From NCBI GenBank assembly GCA_017480195.1, contig JAFVBE010000010.1, positions 1 through 45,061 on the forward strand: a DNA stretch of 45,061 nucleotides, read 5' to 3'. Below, one piece after another: positions 18,771-22,794 of this stretch (the first letter of the stretch is position 1; the number at the start of each line of letters is the position of its first letter). Origin of the DNA: Lachnospiraceae bacterium. Lineage in GTDB: Bacteria; Bacillota; Clostridia; Lachnospirales; Lachnospiraceae. The notes beneath the pieces are model-generated. The model searched no databases, was not told the origin of the DNA, and saw only the letters and a list, made by a program, of their open reading frames with translations. Position numbers and translations under genes: made by a program.

Positions 18771-19529
18771 TTATTCAGCTTCCATTCTATGCCGTTCCTT
18801 CTTCATAGCTCCGATAATTGTCTCTCTCGCTTCTATAGCCTGCTGCTTAGTCGCCGGTTCTACATCCTTTAAAACATAATCTATACCCATATTTTCATAC
18901 TTAGCCTTGCCCATATCATGATAAGGAAGCACATCCAAGGCCTTGATATGCTTAAAGTGTGCTAAGAATGTTCCAAGTCTCTCAAGATATTCAGGCACAA
19001 GAGTTATACCCGGTACTACAACATGTCTTATCCAGATTTCCTTCTCCTGTTCATCAAGGAATTTTAAGAAGTCAAATATATTTTCACAAGGCTGACTTGT
19101 AAGCTTCTTATGCTCCTCAGGGTCTATATGCTTAATATCAAGCATTATCAAATCAGTTGACTTCATAAGTCTCTCATACTTAGCAAGAAGCTCAGGGTTA
19201 TTCCTTCTGAACATTATACCCGATGTATCAAGACAGGTATGAATACCTTTTTCCTTCGCTTTCTCAAAAAGCTCTATAAGAAAGTCAATCTGTACCAACG
19301 GCTCACCACCCGTAACCGTGATGCCGCCTTTCTGATAAAACTCCTTATATCCATCATAATCCTTAAGTATCTCATCCGGTGTCATCTTCGTTGCGCCAAC
19401 CGATTCCCATGTATCAGGATTGTGGCAGTACAAGCATCGCATAGGACAGCCCTTTACGAATACTACATATCTTGTTCCCGGTCCGTCAACCGTTCCGAAT
19501 GTTTCTATTGAATGAATTAAACCTTCCAT
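18771..19529 (-). CDS. pflA: Pyruvate formate-lyase activating enzyme
   Basis: A radical SAM enzyme that abstracts a hydrogen from the glycine of pyruvate formate-lyase. About 252 aa. The cluster motif is GCPMRCLYCHNPDTW (CX3CX2C), and FGTVDGPGTRYVVF before it is characteristic of PFL activases. GGEPLVQ (TVTGGEPL) binds SAM. The downstream half has LDTSGI and DLIMLDIKH. ATG 19529 follows AAGAAGGG. It lies downstream of the split pfl genes on the same strand; a hairpin at 19602-19625 separates them, so expression may be partly independent. Here its target Gly is on a separate small subunit (19649-19888). Confidence 0.95.
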   Translation of the reverse strand: MEGLIHSIETFGTVDGPGTRYVVFVKGCPMRCLYCHNPDTWESVGATKMTPDEILKDYDGYKEFYQKGGITVTGGEPLVQIDFLIELFEKAKEKGIHTCLDTSGIMFRRNNPELLAKYERLMKSTDLIMLDIKHIDPEEHKKLTSQPCENIFDFLKFLDEQEKEIWIRHVVVPGITLVPEYLERLGTFLAHFKHIKALDVLPYHDMGKAKYENMGIDYVLKDVEPATKQQAIEARETIIGAMKKERHRMEAE

Positions 19530-19601
19530 GATAGACACCCTTCTTTCTCATTTGCTTTTTATTATAACACATATCTGTAATATAATTCCACAAAAGAATA
19601 A

Positions 19602-19625
19602 AGAGGCCGGCATAAGCCAGCCTCT
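19602..19625 (-). terminator. Hairpin between the pfl genes and pflA
   Basis: AGAGGC/GCCTCT with inner GGC/GCC pairs, followed on the minus strand by TTTATTCTTTTG. It lies 24 bp after the glycyl-radical subunit gene. It probably reduces read-through into pflA. Confidence 0.75.
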
Positions 19626-19648
19626 CTTGATATTATAGCCAATAATTA

Positions 19649-19888
19649 TTACATTGACTCATGGAATGTACGTGAAATTACATCAGCCTGCTGCTCAGGA
19701 GTAAGCTTGATGAAGTTTACAGCATATCCTGATACACGGATAGTAAGCTGTGGATAATTCTCAGGATGCTTCTGAGCATCAAGTAAAGTGTCTCTGTTAT
19801 ATACATTAACATTTAAGTGATATCCACCTTTTTCTACATATCCGTCTAACATATTTACTAAGTTATCAATCTGCTGAGTACTTGCCAT
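19649..19888 (-). CDS. Stand-alone glycyl-radical domain of pyruvate formate-lyase
   Basis: A 79-aa protein that matches the C-terminal domain of [44 protein letters not shown] and [17 protein letters not shown]. Gly54 in RVSGYAV is the expected radical site. E. coli has a similar autonomous protein, GrcA (YfiD), as a repair part for damaged PFL. Here it seems to be the obligate missing piece, since the large subunit at 20158 stops right before this region; 687 plus about 68 residues equals the normal PFL length of about 760. It has a strong site (AAGGAGGA) before ATG 19888 and is last in the operon. Confidence 0.92.
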
Positions 19889-19914
19889 TTTTATATCCTC
19901 CTTAATTTTATTAA

Positions 19915-20130
19915 TTAGTTATTGTCTTCAAATGCATCGTCTATGCCTTCATGTAAAGTAGGGACATTACAAGCGAGGTTACCTTTTGCACAATCTATGC
20001 AGCCGAGCGTCTCTACCTCTTTGCCCTCCTGATCCGGATCATAGGATACATTGATGTGTCCATGACCGTTTGCAACCATACCATCAAGCATTGCGACAAT
20101 ATCTTCGACATTATTTAAACCATTATCCAT
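19915..20130 (-). CDS. Cysteine-containing paralogue of the glycyl-radical domain, no radical loop
   Basis: A 71-aa protein between the large and small PFL subunits. Its first part, [26 protein letters not shown], aligns with the start of the 79-aa subunit (MLDG-x-V-x2-G-x2-H-x-NV in both). The second half is different: no RVSGY loop and no Gly radical site; instead Cys44, Cys47 and Cys54 (CX2CX6C) and an acidic end. Four Cys are not present, so a full metal site would need a partner or homo-oligomer. I start at ATG 20130: AAAGGA directly abuts the earlier ATG at 20139 with no spacing, but sits 9 bases before 20130. Function unknown. Confidence 0.8.
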
Positions 20131-20157
20131 TAAACTCATTCCTTTTAAATGTTAATC

Positions 20158-22221
20158 TTACTTACTAAGGTCAACTTCAAGGTCACCTGCGAATACCTGA
20201 TCTTCCTTACCAAGAGCTCCAGGAATTATTGAGAAGGTATTTGAGATACCATCCTGTGAATCCATATATGGGAGCTTAGCAACTGAAGCAAGTGATGCTA
20301 CTGCACCATGAGTATCTCTCTTGTGCATTGGGTTAGCACCAGGAGCAAATGGCTCGCCATGCTTTCTACCACAAGGAGTATCTCCTGTATTCTTACCATA
20401 AGTTACATTTGAAGTTATTGTAAGAATTGACATTGTTGGGAAGCCGTTTCTGTATACATGATGCTTTCTAAGCTTATGCATAAATGTTGAAACAAGGCTT
20501 GCTGCAATCTGGTCAACTCTGTCATCGTTGTTACCATACTTAGGGAAATCTCCCTCAGTCTCGTAGCTGGTTACAATTCCCTGCTCATTTCTGATACACT
20601 TAACCTTAGCATACTTGATAGCTGAGAGTGAGTCAGCTACAACTGAAAGACCTGCAAGACCGGTTGCGAAGAATCTCTTAACATCTCTGTCATGGAGGGC
20701 CATCTGGATTCTCTCATAAGCGTACTTATCATGCATATAGTGGATGATATTAAGTGCACTTACATAAACCTTAGCAAGCCATTCCATCATATCATCGAAC
20801 TTCTCCATAACCTCATCATAATCAAGATATTCTGAAGTTACAGGTCTGTACTTAGGACCAACCTGAACGCCTGTGCACTCATCAACACCACCGTTGATAG
20901 CGTAGAGTAAGCACTTAGCAAGGTTAGCTCTTGCTCCGAAGAACTGCATATCCTTACCGATTCTCATTGAAGATACGCAACATGCGATACCATAATCATC
21001 ACCGTGTACAGGTCTCATTAAGTCATCATTCTCATACTGAATTGATGAAGACTTGATAGACATCTTAGCACAATACTGCTTCCAGTTTACAGGAAGATGT
21101 GTTGACCAGAGAACTGTTAAGTTAGGCTCCGGTGAAGTTCCTAAGTTATCAAGTGTATTAAGATAACGGAAGCTCATCTTTGTTACAAGTGGACGACCAT
21201 CAACACCCATACCACCAAGTGACTCAGTAACCCATACAGGATCACCTGCGAAGATTGAGTTATACTCAGGTGTTCTTGCGAACTTAACGCATCTTAACTT
21301 CATAATGAAGTGGTCTACGAACTCCTGAATCTGCTCCTCTGTAAATGTACCGTTCTTAAGGTCTCTCTCTGCGTAGATATCAAGGAAAGTAGAAGTACGT
21401 CCGAGTGACATTGCTGCACCGTTCTGCTCCTTAACTGCTCCAAGATAACCGAAGTATAAGAACTGAATAGCTTCCTGAACATTCTTAGCAGGTTTTGATA
21501 TATCAACACCATAGAATGAAGCCATCTTCTTTAACTCCTGTAATGCACGAATCTGCTCTGAGATTTCTTCCTTTCCTCTGATAACATCATCAGTATATAC
21601 AGTACCAAAAGATTCCTTCTGAATCTTCTTGTCTTCAATAAGAAAATCTATACCGTAGAGAGCAACTCTTCTGTAGTCACCGATGATACGTCCGCGACCG
21701 TAAGCATCAGGAAGTCCTGTAATGATGTGGTTTGAACGACATCTTCTGATTTCATCATCATATACATCAAATACACCCGCATTATGAGTCTTTCTGTGAG
21801 TAGTAAAGAACTCAACTATCTCAGGGTCTACCTTATATCCATTGTCCTCGCATGCCTTCATAGCCATACGAATACCGCCGTATACATTCATACCTCTCTT
21901 GAAAGGTGCATCTGTCTGGAAACCAACGATCTTTTCCTTACTCTTATCTAAGTATCCTGCCTGATGTGAAGTAAGAGTAGATACAACCTTAGTATCCATA
22001 TCTAAAACTCCACCTGCTTCTCTCTCCTTCTTCGAAAGGTCGAGAACCATCTGCCATAAGTCCTTAGTATCCTGAGTAGGACCTGCAAGGAAGGTATCAT
22101 CACCTTCATATGGAGTATAATTTCTCTGAATGAAATCTCTAACCTCAACTTCTTTCTGCCACTTTCCAGCTACGAATCCATCCCAGCTGTCAGTCTCAAG
22201 TGCATTCATTTTTAATAACAT
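20158..22221 (-). CDS. pflB: Pyruvate formate-lyase large subunit, lacking the glycyl-radical domain
   Basis: Cleaves pyruvate with CoA to acetyl-CoA and formate. 687 aa. The catalytic pair Cys414-Cys415 lies in [15 protein letters not shown], matching Cys418-Cys419 of the E. coli enzyme. Other PFL signatures: [14 protein letters not shown] near the N-terminus, [16 protein letters not shown] and EPNLTVLWS. It ends [20 protein letters not shown] plus 14 residues, the point where E. coli PFL continues into its radical domain. A second in-frame TAA follows six bases after the first, so simple read-through cannot join it to the next gene. ATG 22221 has AAGGAGGA upstream. Confidence 0.95.
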
Positions 22222-22287: not shown

Positions 22288-22407
22288 TTGTATACACGCT
22301 CAAATTCTGATGATGTCTACATTATAAGGCTTTCGTGTATACTCGTCAATGTCAAAAAATGAATTTATTGTACTTTTTTTAATACACGAATTGTATACAT
22401 GTATACA
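22288..22407. promoter_or_regulatory. Candidate operators with repeated GTATAC core
   Basis: Within 120 bp: TTGTATACACG (22288-22298), CGTGTATAC (22334-22342, inside the pfl promoter spacer), ACACGAATTGTATACA (22384-22399) and a perfect 16-bp palindrome TGTATACATGTATACA (22392-22407). The shared unit CGTGTATAC/GTATACACG suggests one regulator acting on pfl and perhaps on the divergent operon. It does not match the usual Rex (TTGTGA..TCACAA) or FNR (TTGAT..ATCAA) boxes. Confidence 0.65.
22321..22349 (-). promoter_or_regulatory. pfl promoter
   Basis: On the minus strand TTGACG (22349-22344), a 17-bp spacer and TATAAT (22326-22321). The leader would be about 90 nt. The spacer contains GTATACACG, so a protein bound there would block RNA polymerase. 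Confidence 0.8.
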
Positions 22408-22465
22408 TTATGAAAAAATAACAATTTTTTTGCATTTTAACTTATAATTATGGATAACATTTCAA

Positions 22466-22560: not shown

Positions 22561-22794
22561 ATGGCTGCACAGATAAATAAAGATATGCTGATACATGAGC
22601 TTATTGAGATTGACCCGGGTAACGCTGCAATCCTTATGGCATCAGGTATGCACTGCGTGGGTTGCCCCGCATCCGCTATGGAATCCCTTGAGGAAGCATG
22701 TGCCGTACACGGTATGGATGTTGATGAGGTAATAGACGCAATCACAGAGTATCTTGACAGAAAAAATGCCGCAAAAGAAACTGAGAAAGTATAA
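22561..22794 (+). CDS. DUF1858-type redox-disulfide protein
   Basis: A 77-aa cytoplasmic protein. MLIHELIEIDPGNAAILMASGMHCVGCPASAMESLEEACAVHGMDVDEVI has the layout of the DUF1858 / hybrid-cluster-associated small domain: short helical lead, a GMHCVGCP motif with two Cys, then helices. Such domains are linked to redox or iron-sulfur chemistry; the precise role is unknown. It starts after GAGGAGGAA, is 20 bp from the next gene, and is divergent from pfl, sharing the control region. Confidence 0.85.
   Translation: MAAQINKDMLIHELIEIDPGNAAILMASGMHCVGCPASAMESLEEACAVHGMDVDEVIDAITEYLDRKNAAKETEKV

Follow-up and report, generated by a model that had tools for sequence, protein, structure and literature searches.

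In the Lachnospiraceae bacterium from which the stretch of DNA analysed here originates (assembly GCA_017480195.1, contig JAFVBE010000010.1; the whole stretch of 45,061 nucleotides is called the window), pyruvate formate-lyase (PFL) is best explained as an obligately split enzyme. Its catalytic chain and its glycyl-radical domain are encoded by separate genes, the radical domain would be supplied in trans by a small protein of the GrcA3 family, and a third element would work with them, either a small middle protein (M) encoded between the two genes or a cysteine-rich tail (Cys tail) on the large chain. This overall explanation is given a probability of about 0.6. PFL holds a central place in the anaerobic fermentation of sugars, and a main reason for its death in air is the glycyl radical that it carries. 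The chemistry of PFL and the idea of a spare radical part are already known; what appears to be new is the third component M, which is undescribed in the sources searched.

The large gene encodes a chain of 687 amino acids that matches the Pfam PFL-like family end to end (E 9.8e-213) and the formate C-acetyltransferase model TIGR01255 with 1101.3 bits (cut-off 994.2). In a fold comparison, E. coli PFL ranks first and the other matches are only glycyl radical enzymes and class III ribonucleotide reductases. However, Pfam and NCBIfam profiles place the glycyl-radical domain outside this polypeptide, in a separate gene of 79 codons. The large chain thus covers positions 2-666 of the 744 positions of TIGR01255 and the small chain positions 665-744; in the same way, they cover positions 1-51 and 50-106, respectively, of the 106 positions of the Pfam Gly_radical model. 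Residues 10-678 of the large chain align with residues 8-682 of E. coli PFL, and residues 8-79 of the small chain with residues 683-759, the RVSGYAV motif being intact. The small chain exceeds the cut-off of the NCBIfam model NF038360 (GrcA3; 162.9 bits for a cut-off of 158) and its residues 20-79 align with residues 68-127 of YfiD (6owr). The catalytic pair C414-C415 is invariant among 30 large chains and G54 among 25 small chains. The ratio of nonsynonymous to synonymous polymorphism (pN/pS) of the small chain is 0.092 (nine same-genus sequences). AAGGAGG-type ribosome-binding sites are read 5' of both genes. An earlier note on this DNA had described a large chain carrying Cys414-Cys415 that ends before the glycyl-radical domain, and an independent radical-domain gene carrying Gly54 with its own ribosome-binding site: the open reading frames, the profiles, the alignment with E. 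coli PFL and the reading of the sequence bear out both descriptions. The comparison of the operon in relatives, which that note had proposed, revealed the same arrangement in many genomes. Since this arrangement, with its separate starts, is kept in so many of them, a frame error or a pseudogene between the large and small genes was rejected.

The note had also called for a search for any full-length PFL elsewhere in the genome. None was found in the available assembly (2.4 Mb in 63 contigs, 84.7% complete), where the split chain is the sole match to PF02901. The one Gly_radical match outside the window reads, by eye, as NrdD with NrdG behind it. Likewise, no full-length TIGR01255 chain was detected in 25 genomes of the genus, this one included (E 1e-20). 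The small chain is present in 21 of these 25 genomes and M in the same 21 (as two contig pieces in G015 and one piece in G017). Among these 21 genomes, 20 have a large chain, or its end, that stops at positions 665-670 of TIGR01255, the remaining one (G017) having only the small chain and a piece of M. A complete split large chain is found in 17 of the 25 genomes; in three others (G006, G008 and G022) only its end is seen, from base 1 of a contig or close to it, and G009 has a fragment covering positions 1-456. G002, G005 (a one-contig genome) and G011 have no TIGR01255 match. For G020 and G010, the search summed the large and small chains as neighbours in one frame (1183.4 and 1179.9 bits); their DNA (L044 and L038) has a stop after the large chain, and M lies between the two chains.

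The same picture extends to the order, for which 392 genomes were sampled. PFL1 was found in 278 of them (E 1e-150). A separate GrcA3, defined as one in a frame of at most 141 amino acids, occurs in 80 among the matches listed, those weaker than about 1e-44 all lying in frames of at least 742 amino acids. A split large chain accompanies it in 79 of these 80 genomes. The match of this chain ends at positions 663-686 of TIGR01255 except in G375, G206 and G055, where it reaches 700-707 by running on through the stop. Such run-on concerns five large-chain matches in all (these three, G299 and G279), and some large chains of the order and genus surveys have open-frame lengths of up to 948 amino acids. 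In G166, the large chain is spread over two contigs. The only genome with no PFL1 chain found is G097, in which M lies 271 bases from a contig start. A full-length PFL is additionally present in only two of the 80 genomes (G372 and G396); in 77, the search found no PFL1 chain besides the split one, whose sole radical domain among the matches is the separate chain. As 79 of the 80 genomes carry the split chain, and as the 80 span 34 genera and four families (labelled f1, f8, f11 and f22), split PFL is widespread in the order. The near-absence of full-length PFL from these genomes, and the failure to find any in the genus or in the genome itself, make it highly probable that the split is obligate.

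A conserved third gene, unmentioned in the earlier note, lies between the two. Its product M belongs to a family of about 70 amino acids that starts with [IV][DE][DE][IL]V-x-[ML][IL]D...GH-[VILM]-N and carries C-x5/6-C-x-x-P-T near its end (C-x5-AC-x-VPTL in the window). This Cys motif is present in 62 of 64 distinct M proteins found by profile. The count of 118 of 120 is not used, as it includes 56 further proteins that were retrieved by the motif itself and say nothing of its frequency. The two motif-less proteins are those of G338, which stops before the motif, and G316 (contig 3), a divergent homologue. The number of cysteines among the 64 is three in 37 proteins, two in 21, four in five and five in one. 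The pooled pN/pS of M is 0.212 (12 same-genus sequences), indicating purifying selection, and together with the wide conservation it led to the rejection of a chance open reading frame.

M aligns with GrcA3 over its first 32-35 or so residues only, and it lacks the RVSGY glycine radical loop. The comparison of the M start with GrcA3 by hhalign gives a probability of 96.8 over 35 columns, and the trimmed comparison scores 51.3, against a best score of 20.3 in 200 column shuffles and 9.4 when reversed. In addition, the M profile picks up three full-length PFLs, those of G411 and G266 (25.9 bits) and that of G398 (21.4 bits), at the start of their radical domain. Searched against 299 genomes of the phylum, it hits outside the genus only 11 frames of 744-795 amino acids, one in each of 11 genomes, all within profile positions 3-34 (E 5.6e-5 to 0.001; frames not typed). 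From these comparisons, the first 32 or so residues of M are judged to have a common origin with the opening segment of the radical domain, a Cys segment replacing the glycine loop. The M of the window has no match at cut-off in Pfam or NCBIfam (DUF7247 at E 0.012; the GrcA3 start at E 0.073), whereas the M of L048 matches the GrcA3 start of NCBIfam at E 4.4e-4. For the M of the window, no match was found in phage and plasmid collections (E 0.01). A search of the M profile against the PDB gave no convincing chain, with one weak match to an adenosylhomocysteinase (E 0.31).

The distribution of M follows that of the separate radical chain. Of the 80 genomes with a separate GrcA3, 60 encode M; it was found in none of the other 312 genomes of the order sample, 199 of which have PFL1. 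The first M profile had matched 62 order genomes, of which G250 and G330 were matched only through their GrcA3 start. When GTDB species genomes were scanned with 18 M proteins, there were 355 pattern matches, of which 350 were confirmed relatives. In the best 80 of these 350 loci, the radical chain adjoins M in all but one (L190) and a Cys-free large-chain end was read in all 80; one of the loci examined, L208, has the gene order large, small, M. These best 80 are all metagenome-assembled and titled Lachnospiraceae, Clostridia, Clostridium, Eisenbergiella, Acetatifactor, Lachnoclostridium and, in one case, Bacteroides. Because its search pattern was the Cys motif and the closest matches were retained, the scan is uninformative on how often the motif or M is absent. 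Conservation and distribution make it likely that M is a working partner of the split enzyme.

Where M is missing, the end of the large chain itself usually carries cysteines. It has at least two of them in 19 of the 20 separate-GrcA3 genomes without M versus none of the 46 M genomes inspected (of 60), in which it has no cysteine in 45 cases and one in the last, the criterion of at least two having been set after the tails were seen. M or a Cys tail therefore accompanies 79 of the 80 separate-GrcA3 genomes (60 and 19, respectively), so that the system is not simply two-chain. Thus, in the obligate two-chain enzyme that the earlier note had envisaged, the obligate split is well supported by the genomes, while the number of components is not. 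Four of the 19 tails (G250, G330, G282 and G394) carry the AC-x-[IV]P core of M, for example EECGNQACNIPNIMESIDNE and LECGVDSACAIPNLMVAVDDWK. The odds are slightly in favour of the Cys tail being equivalent to the Cys segment of M, and the need for such a segment seems tied to a radical domain supplied in trans. A tail query of 37 amino acids had no match in the PDB.

In a tree of 99 large chains (quick method, midpoint root, identical cores merged, 11 full-length PFLs left out after the boundary pattern failed), the split rows make up one group with support 99, inside which five full-length PFLs are found. The tail label needs six changes on this tree, at least three of which are forced by well-supported branches, and the tail and M labels interleave. 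This suggests repeated replacement of the one by the other. The five full-length PFLs look like re-fusions. One of them, that of G398 (L256), is a probable re-fusion in which a Cys-rich stretch, TCGCEEVTCAVDANDQQIENLVGLLDGY, lies between barrel and radical domain; earlier trees, including the one behind the reading of this protein, omitted more full-length PFLs. We read it as a Rosetta stone: the Cys segment would act at the end of the large chain, and the radical-domain-like start of M would bring it there when it is not attached.

The proposed mechanism is as follows. The large chain would fold into the catalytic barrel without a glycyl-radical loop of its own. The GrcA3 chain, charged by PflA, would form a complex with it, supply the loop in trans and pass the radical to C414/C415. 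The third element would work with this split enzyme, as a separate M or as a short Cys tail of the large chain. In M, the residues copied from the opening of the radical domain would probably dock the protein at or near the slot of this domain. The Cys segment is the presumed working part; in other lineages, this part may be attached to the large chain itself. The most likely job of M or of the tail would be the recognition, loading or exchange of the detached radical chain. This docking or exchange role remains tentative, with odds somewhat below even. A bolder picture, which is rather doubtful, makes split PFLs modular radical machines whose radical cartridge can be exchanged. In this picture, M or a corresponding tail, as a radical-domain mimic with a thiol switch, would hold the slot and admit or eject the radical chain; strict anaerobes could then park the enzyme safely in the presence of oxygen and, once a 9-kDa part has been swapped, start it again.

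The closest known system is the rescue in E. coli of oxygen-cleaved PFL (residues 1-733) by YfiD/GrcA (Andorfer et al. 2021, PMC8683613). In both cases, a small radical-domain protein completes a barrel that has no domain of its own, and the natural split lies near the end of an engineered E. coli construct, tPFL(1-695). With truncated YfiD (truncYfiD), this construct is catalytically competent, being activated less than whole PFL (PMC8683613). Removal of residues 696-733 from E. coli PFL decreases radical installation 32-fold and abolishes measurable YfiD binding, while catalysis after activation is normal (PMC8683613). The natural split chain lacks this recognition piece, and M carries a homologue of part of it; M or the tail could thus stand in for residues 696-733. 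The split PFL differs from the E. coli system in that the gene for the barrel does not include the domain, a full-length PFL is absent from most split genomes, the long N-terminal half of YfiD has no counterpart in the radical chain (whose match to 6owr begins at residue 68 of 127) and there is the additional M or Cys tail. Small accessory subunits that tune radical chemistry are also known from another glycyl radical enzyme, benzylsuccinate synthase (subunits beta and gamma, PMC12590467). However, these bind [4Fe-4S] clusters in a HiPIP-like fold, whereas 21 of the 64 M proteins have only two cysteines.

The main rival to the docking or exchange role sees M or the Cys tail as a plug, guard or quencher, which would fill the empty slot or, through its thiols, take the radical from a dissociated or idle radical chain, and thereby prevent oxygen cleavage or stray radical chemistry. 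This possibility is somewhat less likely. M indeed has a strand-like segment that would fit the slot but no glycine loop, almost all profile-found M proteins keep the C-x5/6-C-x-x-PT motif, and in the order sample M occurs only alongside trans radical chains; the tail-type enzymes, however, have no strand-like segment. The best ungapped match of the M motif in the large chain is the catalytic loop IACCVSSM. This mimicry is only suggestive, because with the 8-letter motifs as high a score is reached by 56 to 156 of 2000 shuffles. With 17-letter motifs there is no significance (821 and 1369 of 2000 shuffles), and mimicry by longer Cys motifs was rejected. The resemblance of M to a radical domain minus its loop could also point to a fixed complex of two large chains, one radical chain and one M. 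With one radical per PFL dimer, as has been proposed, one barrel would hold the radical chain and the other M as a blank. Such a complex is improbable, given that in tail-type lineages there is no such segment to occupy the second slot and that half-site reactivity is unsupported in vivo according to PMC12338860.

Two further explanations would dispense with a function for M or with the split itself, and both are very unlikely. M might be a decaying, functionless tandem copy of the radical chain, in line with its N-terminal homology with GrcA3 and the early end of the G338 protein. Its pN/pS, the retention of the Cys motif in 62 of 64 proteins, its presence in three quarters of the separate-GrcA3 genomes (60/80) and its retention at a separate location in genus g52 all argue against decay. 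Alternatively, GrcA3 might be an ordinary spare part rescuing a full-length PFL that is missing from the assemblies. The incomplete genome and the NCBIfam name of the small chain, autonomous glycyl radical cofactor, would fit this. Whereas a spare part acts beside a complete PFL, none was found here in the genome itself or in its 24 congeners. In the order, where 75 of the 80 genomes are at least 90% complete and at most 5% contaminated, the split chain is found in 79 and a full-length PFL in only two; moreover, three one-contig genomes (G217, G046 and G356) combine the split chain with the absence of a full-length PFL. A spare part is what the name implies, while the split chain is the sole PFL1 found in 77 of the 80 genomes.

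Several points weigh against the explanation of an obligately split PFL with a third element. It draws on genes and genomes, and the genome of origin is incomplete. In three genomes of genus g52 (L114, L116 and L118), the order is large chain, pflA, radical chain, and M is encoded elsewhere (L115, L117 and L119). Neither M nor a tail of at least two cysteines accompanies the split PFL of G212. As only four of the 19 tails carry the core of M, descent of the tail and the Cys segment of M from each other is unproven. By eye, 14 tails read C-[AL]-C-C-E-P, unlike this core, and that of G382 reads ACDGATLFEGLD, also without it; given as GECCSGGACDGATLFEGLDRE, the last part of this tail resembles, by eye, the PTLFEGLD of M. 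The full-length PFLs of G411, G266, G150 and G350, inside the split clade, lack a Cys motif. In E. coli, YfiD without its first 60 residues is activated 5.4-fold better than whole YfiD on tPFL (PMC8683613), so that a short radical chain works to a degree without a third factor. Finally, the AlphaFold model of M is poor (predicted local distance difference test, pLDDT, 59.3), as is a second structure model (pLDDT 59.9), and neither was used as evidence.

Split PFLs may already be known to others. The best-scoring solved chains for the large chain, PDB 38la_A (687 amino acids, 1080.7 bits) and 38lb_A (739 amino acids, 1108.4 bits), are both named "Formate acetyltransferase" and seem to have no radical domain, because neither was among the matches listed for the small chain at E 0.001. 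Both are recent entries, and either natural splitting or engineered truncation could account for them. Around residues 720-727, 38lb has the sequence KPDCACAA. No description of a PFL divided over two or three genes was found in the literature searched, which is largely without subscription papers and includes passages of PMC8683613, PMC12338860, PMC11528403, PMC9403272, PMC7478625, PMC12288474 and PMC13252398. A search for "GrcA3" found no paper.

Features of the split PFL locus and its surroundings in the window
Feature	Positions	Strand	Basis and remarks
PFL large (catalytic) chain, 687 amino acids	20158..22221	-	Open reading frame with the catalytic pair C414-C415; ends at the hinge that precedes the radical domain
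Middle protein M, 71 amino acids	19915..20130	-	Radical-domain-like start, then Cys motif
M with alternative start, 74 amino acids if ATG at 20139 is used	19915..20139	-	
Separate glycyl-radical chain, 79 amino acids, NCBIfam GrcA3	19649..19888	-	Open reading frame and profile matches; RVSGYAV with G54
Intrinsic-terminator-like hairpin, 12 pairs, 7 G-C	19600..19627	-	3' of the radical chain, before pflA; pattern only
pflA, PFL-activating radical SAM enzyme	18771..19538	-	TIGR02493, E 1.6e-87
Sigma-70-like promoter	22321..22349	-	Upstream of the large chain; 11/12 matches; pattern only

On the minus strand, the large chain is followed by M, the radical chain, the terminator-like hairpin and pflA, which encodes the cognate activating enzyme (292.8 bits for a TIGR02493 cut-off of 231.75). 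Its start could perhaps be the ATG at 19529, relatives beginning MEG... Since the hairpin lies between the small gene and pflA, the latter may be outside the transcript of the split PFL genes; the search for such hairpins found two, for 1.8 expected in shuffles. In the same way, the search for sigma-70-like promoters found 18 for 14.6 expected. Several GTATAC-like repeats, possibly a regulator site, were noticed by eye 5' of the large gene (22300-22440, minus strand). A small DUF1858 protein (22561-22794, plus strand; Pfam E 3.2e-21) is encoded divergently from the large gene, with which it has a common upstream region.

Some M loci deserve mention in their own right. In g52, the gene following M is of the YitT type in L114 and looks alike in the other two genomes. 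G136 has a second set of M, radical chain and pflA (L120, 1686-2201, minus strand). The contig breaks off a short way upstream of M, and a large chain beside the second set is possible beyond that point, but only a single PFL chain was found in this genome. The G338 protein (L146, 1447-1614, minus strand) may be a decayed copy or an assembly error. The divergent M-like protein of G316 (L150, 1448-1705, plus strand; 24 bits) has no PFL gene within the 3 kb examined.

A second separate GrcA3 was found in eight genomes of the order, and two of the seven second loci examined adjoin rubrerythrin. These neighbourhoods give weak hints of a link to oxygen; the replacement of the radical chain after oxygen damage, envisaged in the earlier note, might rescue the enzyme. 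Among the orphan second copies, that of L126 (2381-2626, minus strand) lies near desulfoferrodoxin, rubrerythrin and a Crp-type regulator, and that of L125 (2234-2491, plus strand) near thioredoxin and rubrerythrin.

For the 34 sampled genera, annotating the small gene as a spare cofactor or the large gene as a complete formate acetyltransferase is misleading. The split PFL is a natural counterpart of the tPFL:truncYfiD construct of PMC8683613, and it names a candidate extra factor, M or the Cys tail. With its fragile part on a separate chain, it offers a direct handle on the docking of the radical domain, its activation by PflA and its possible replacement.
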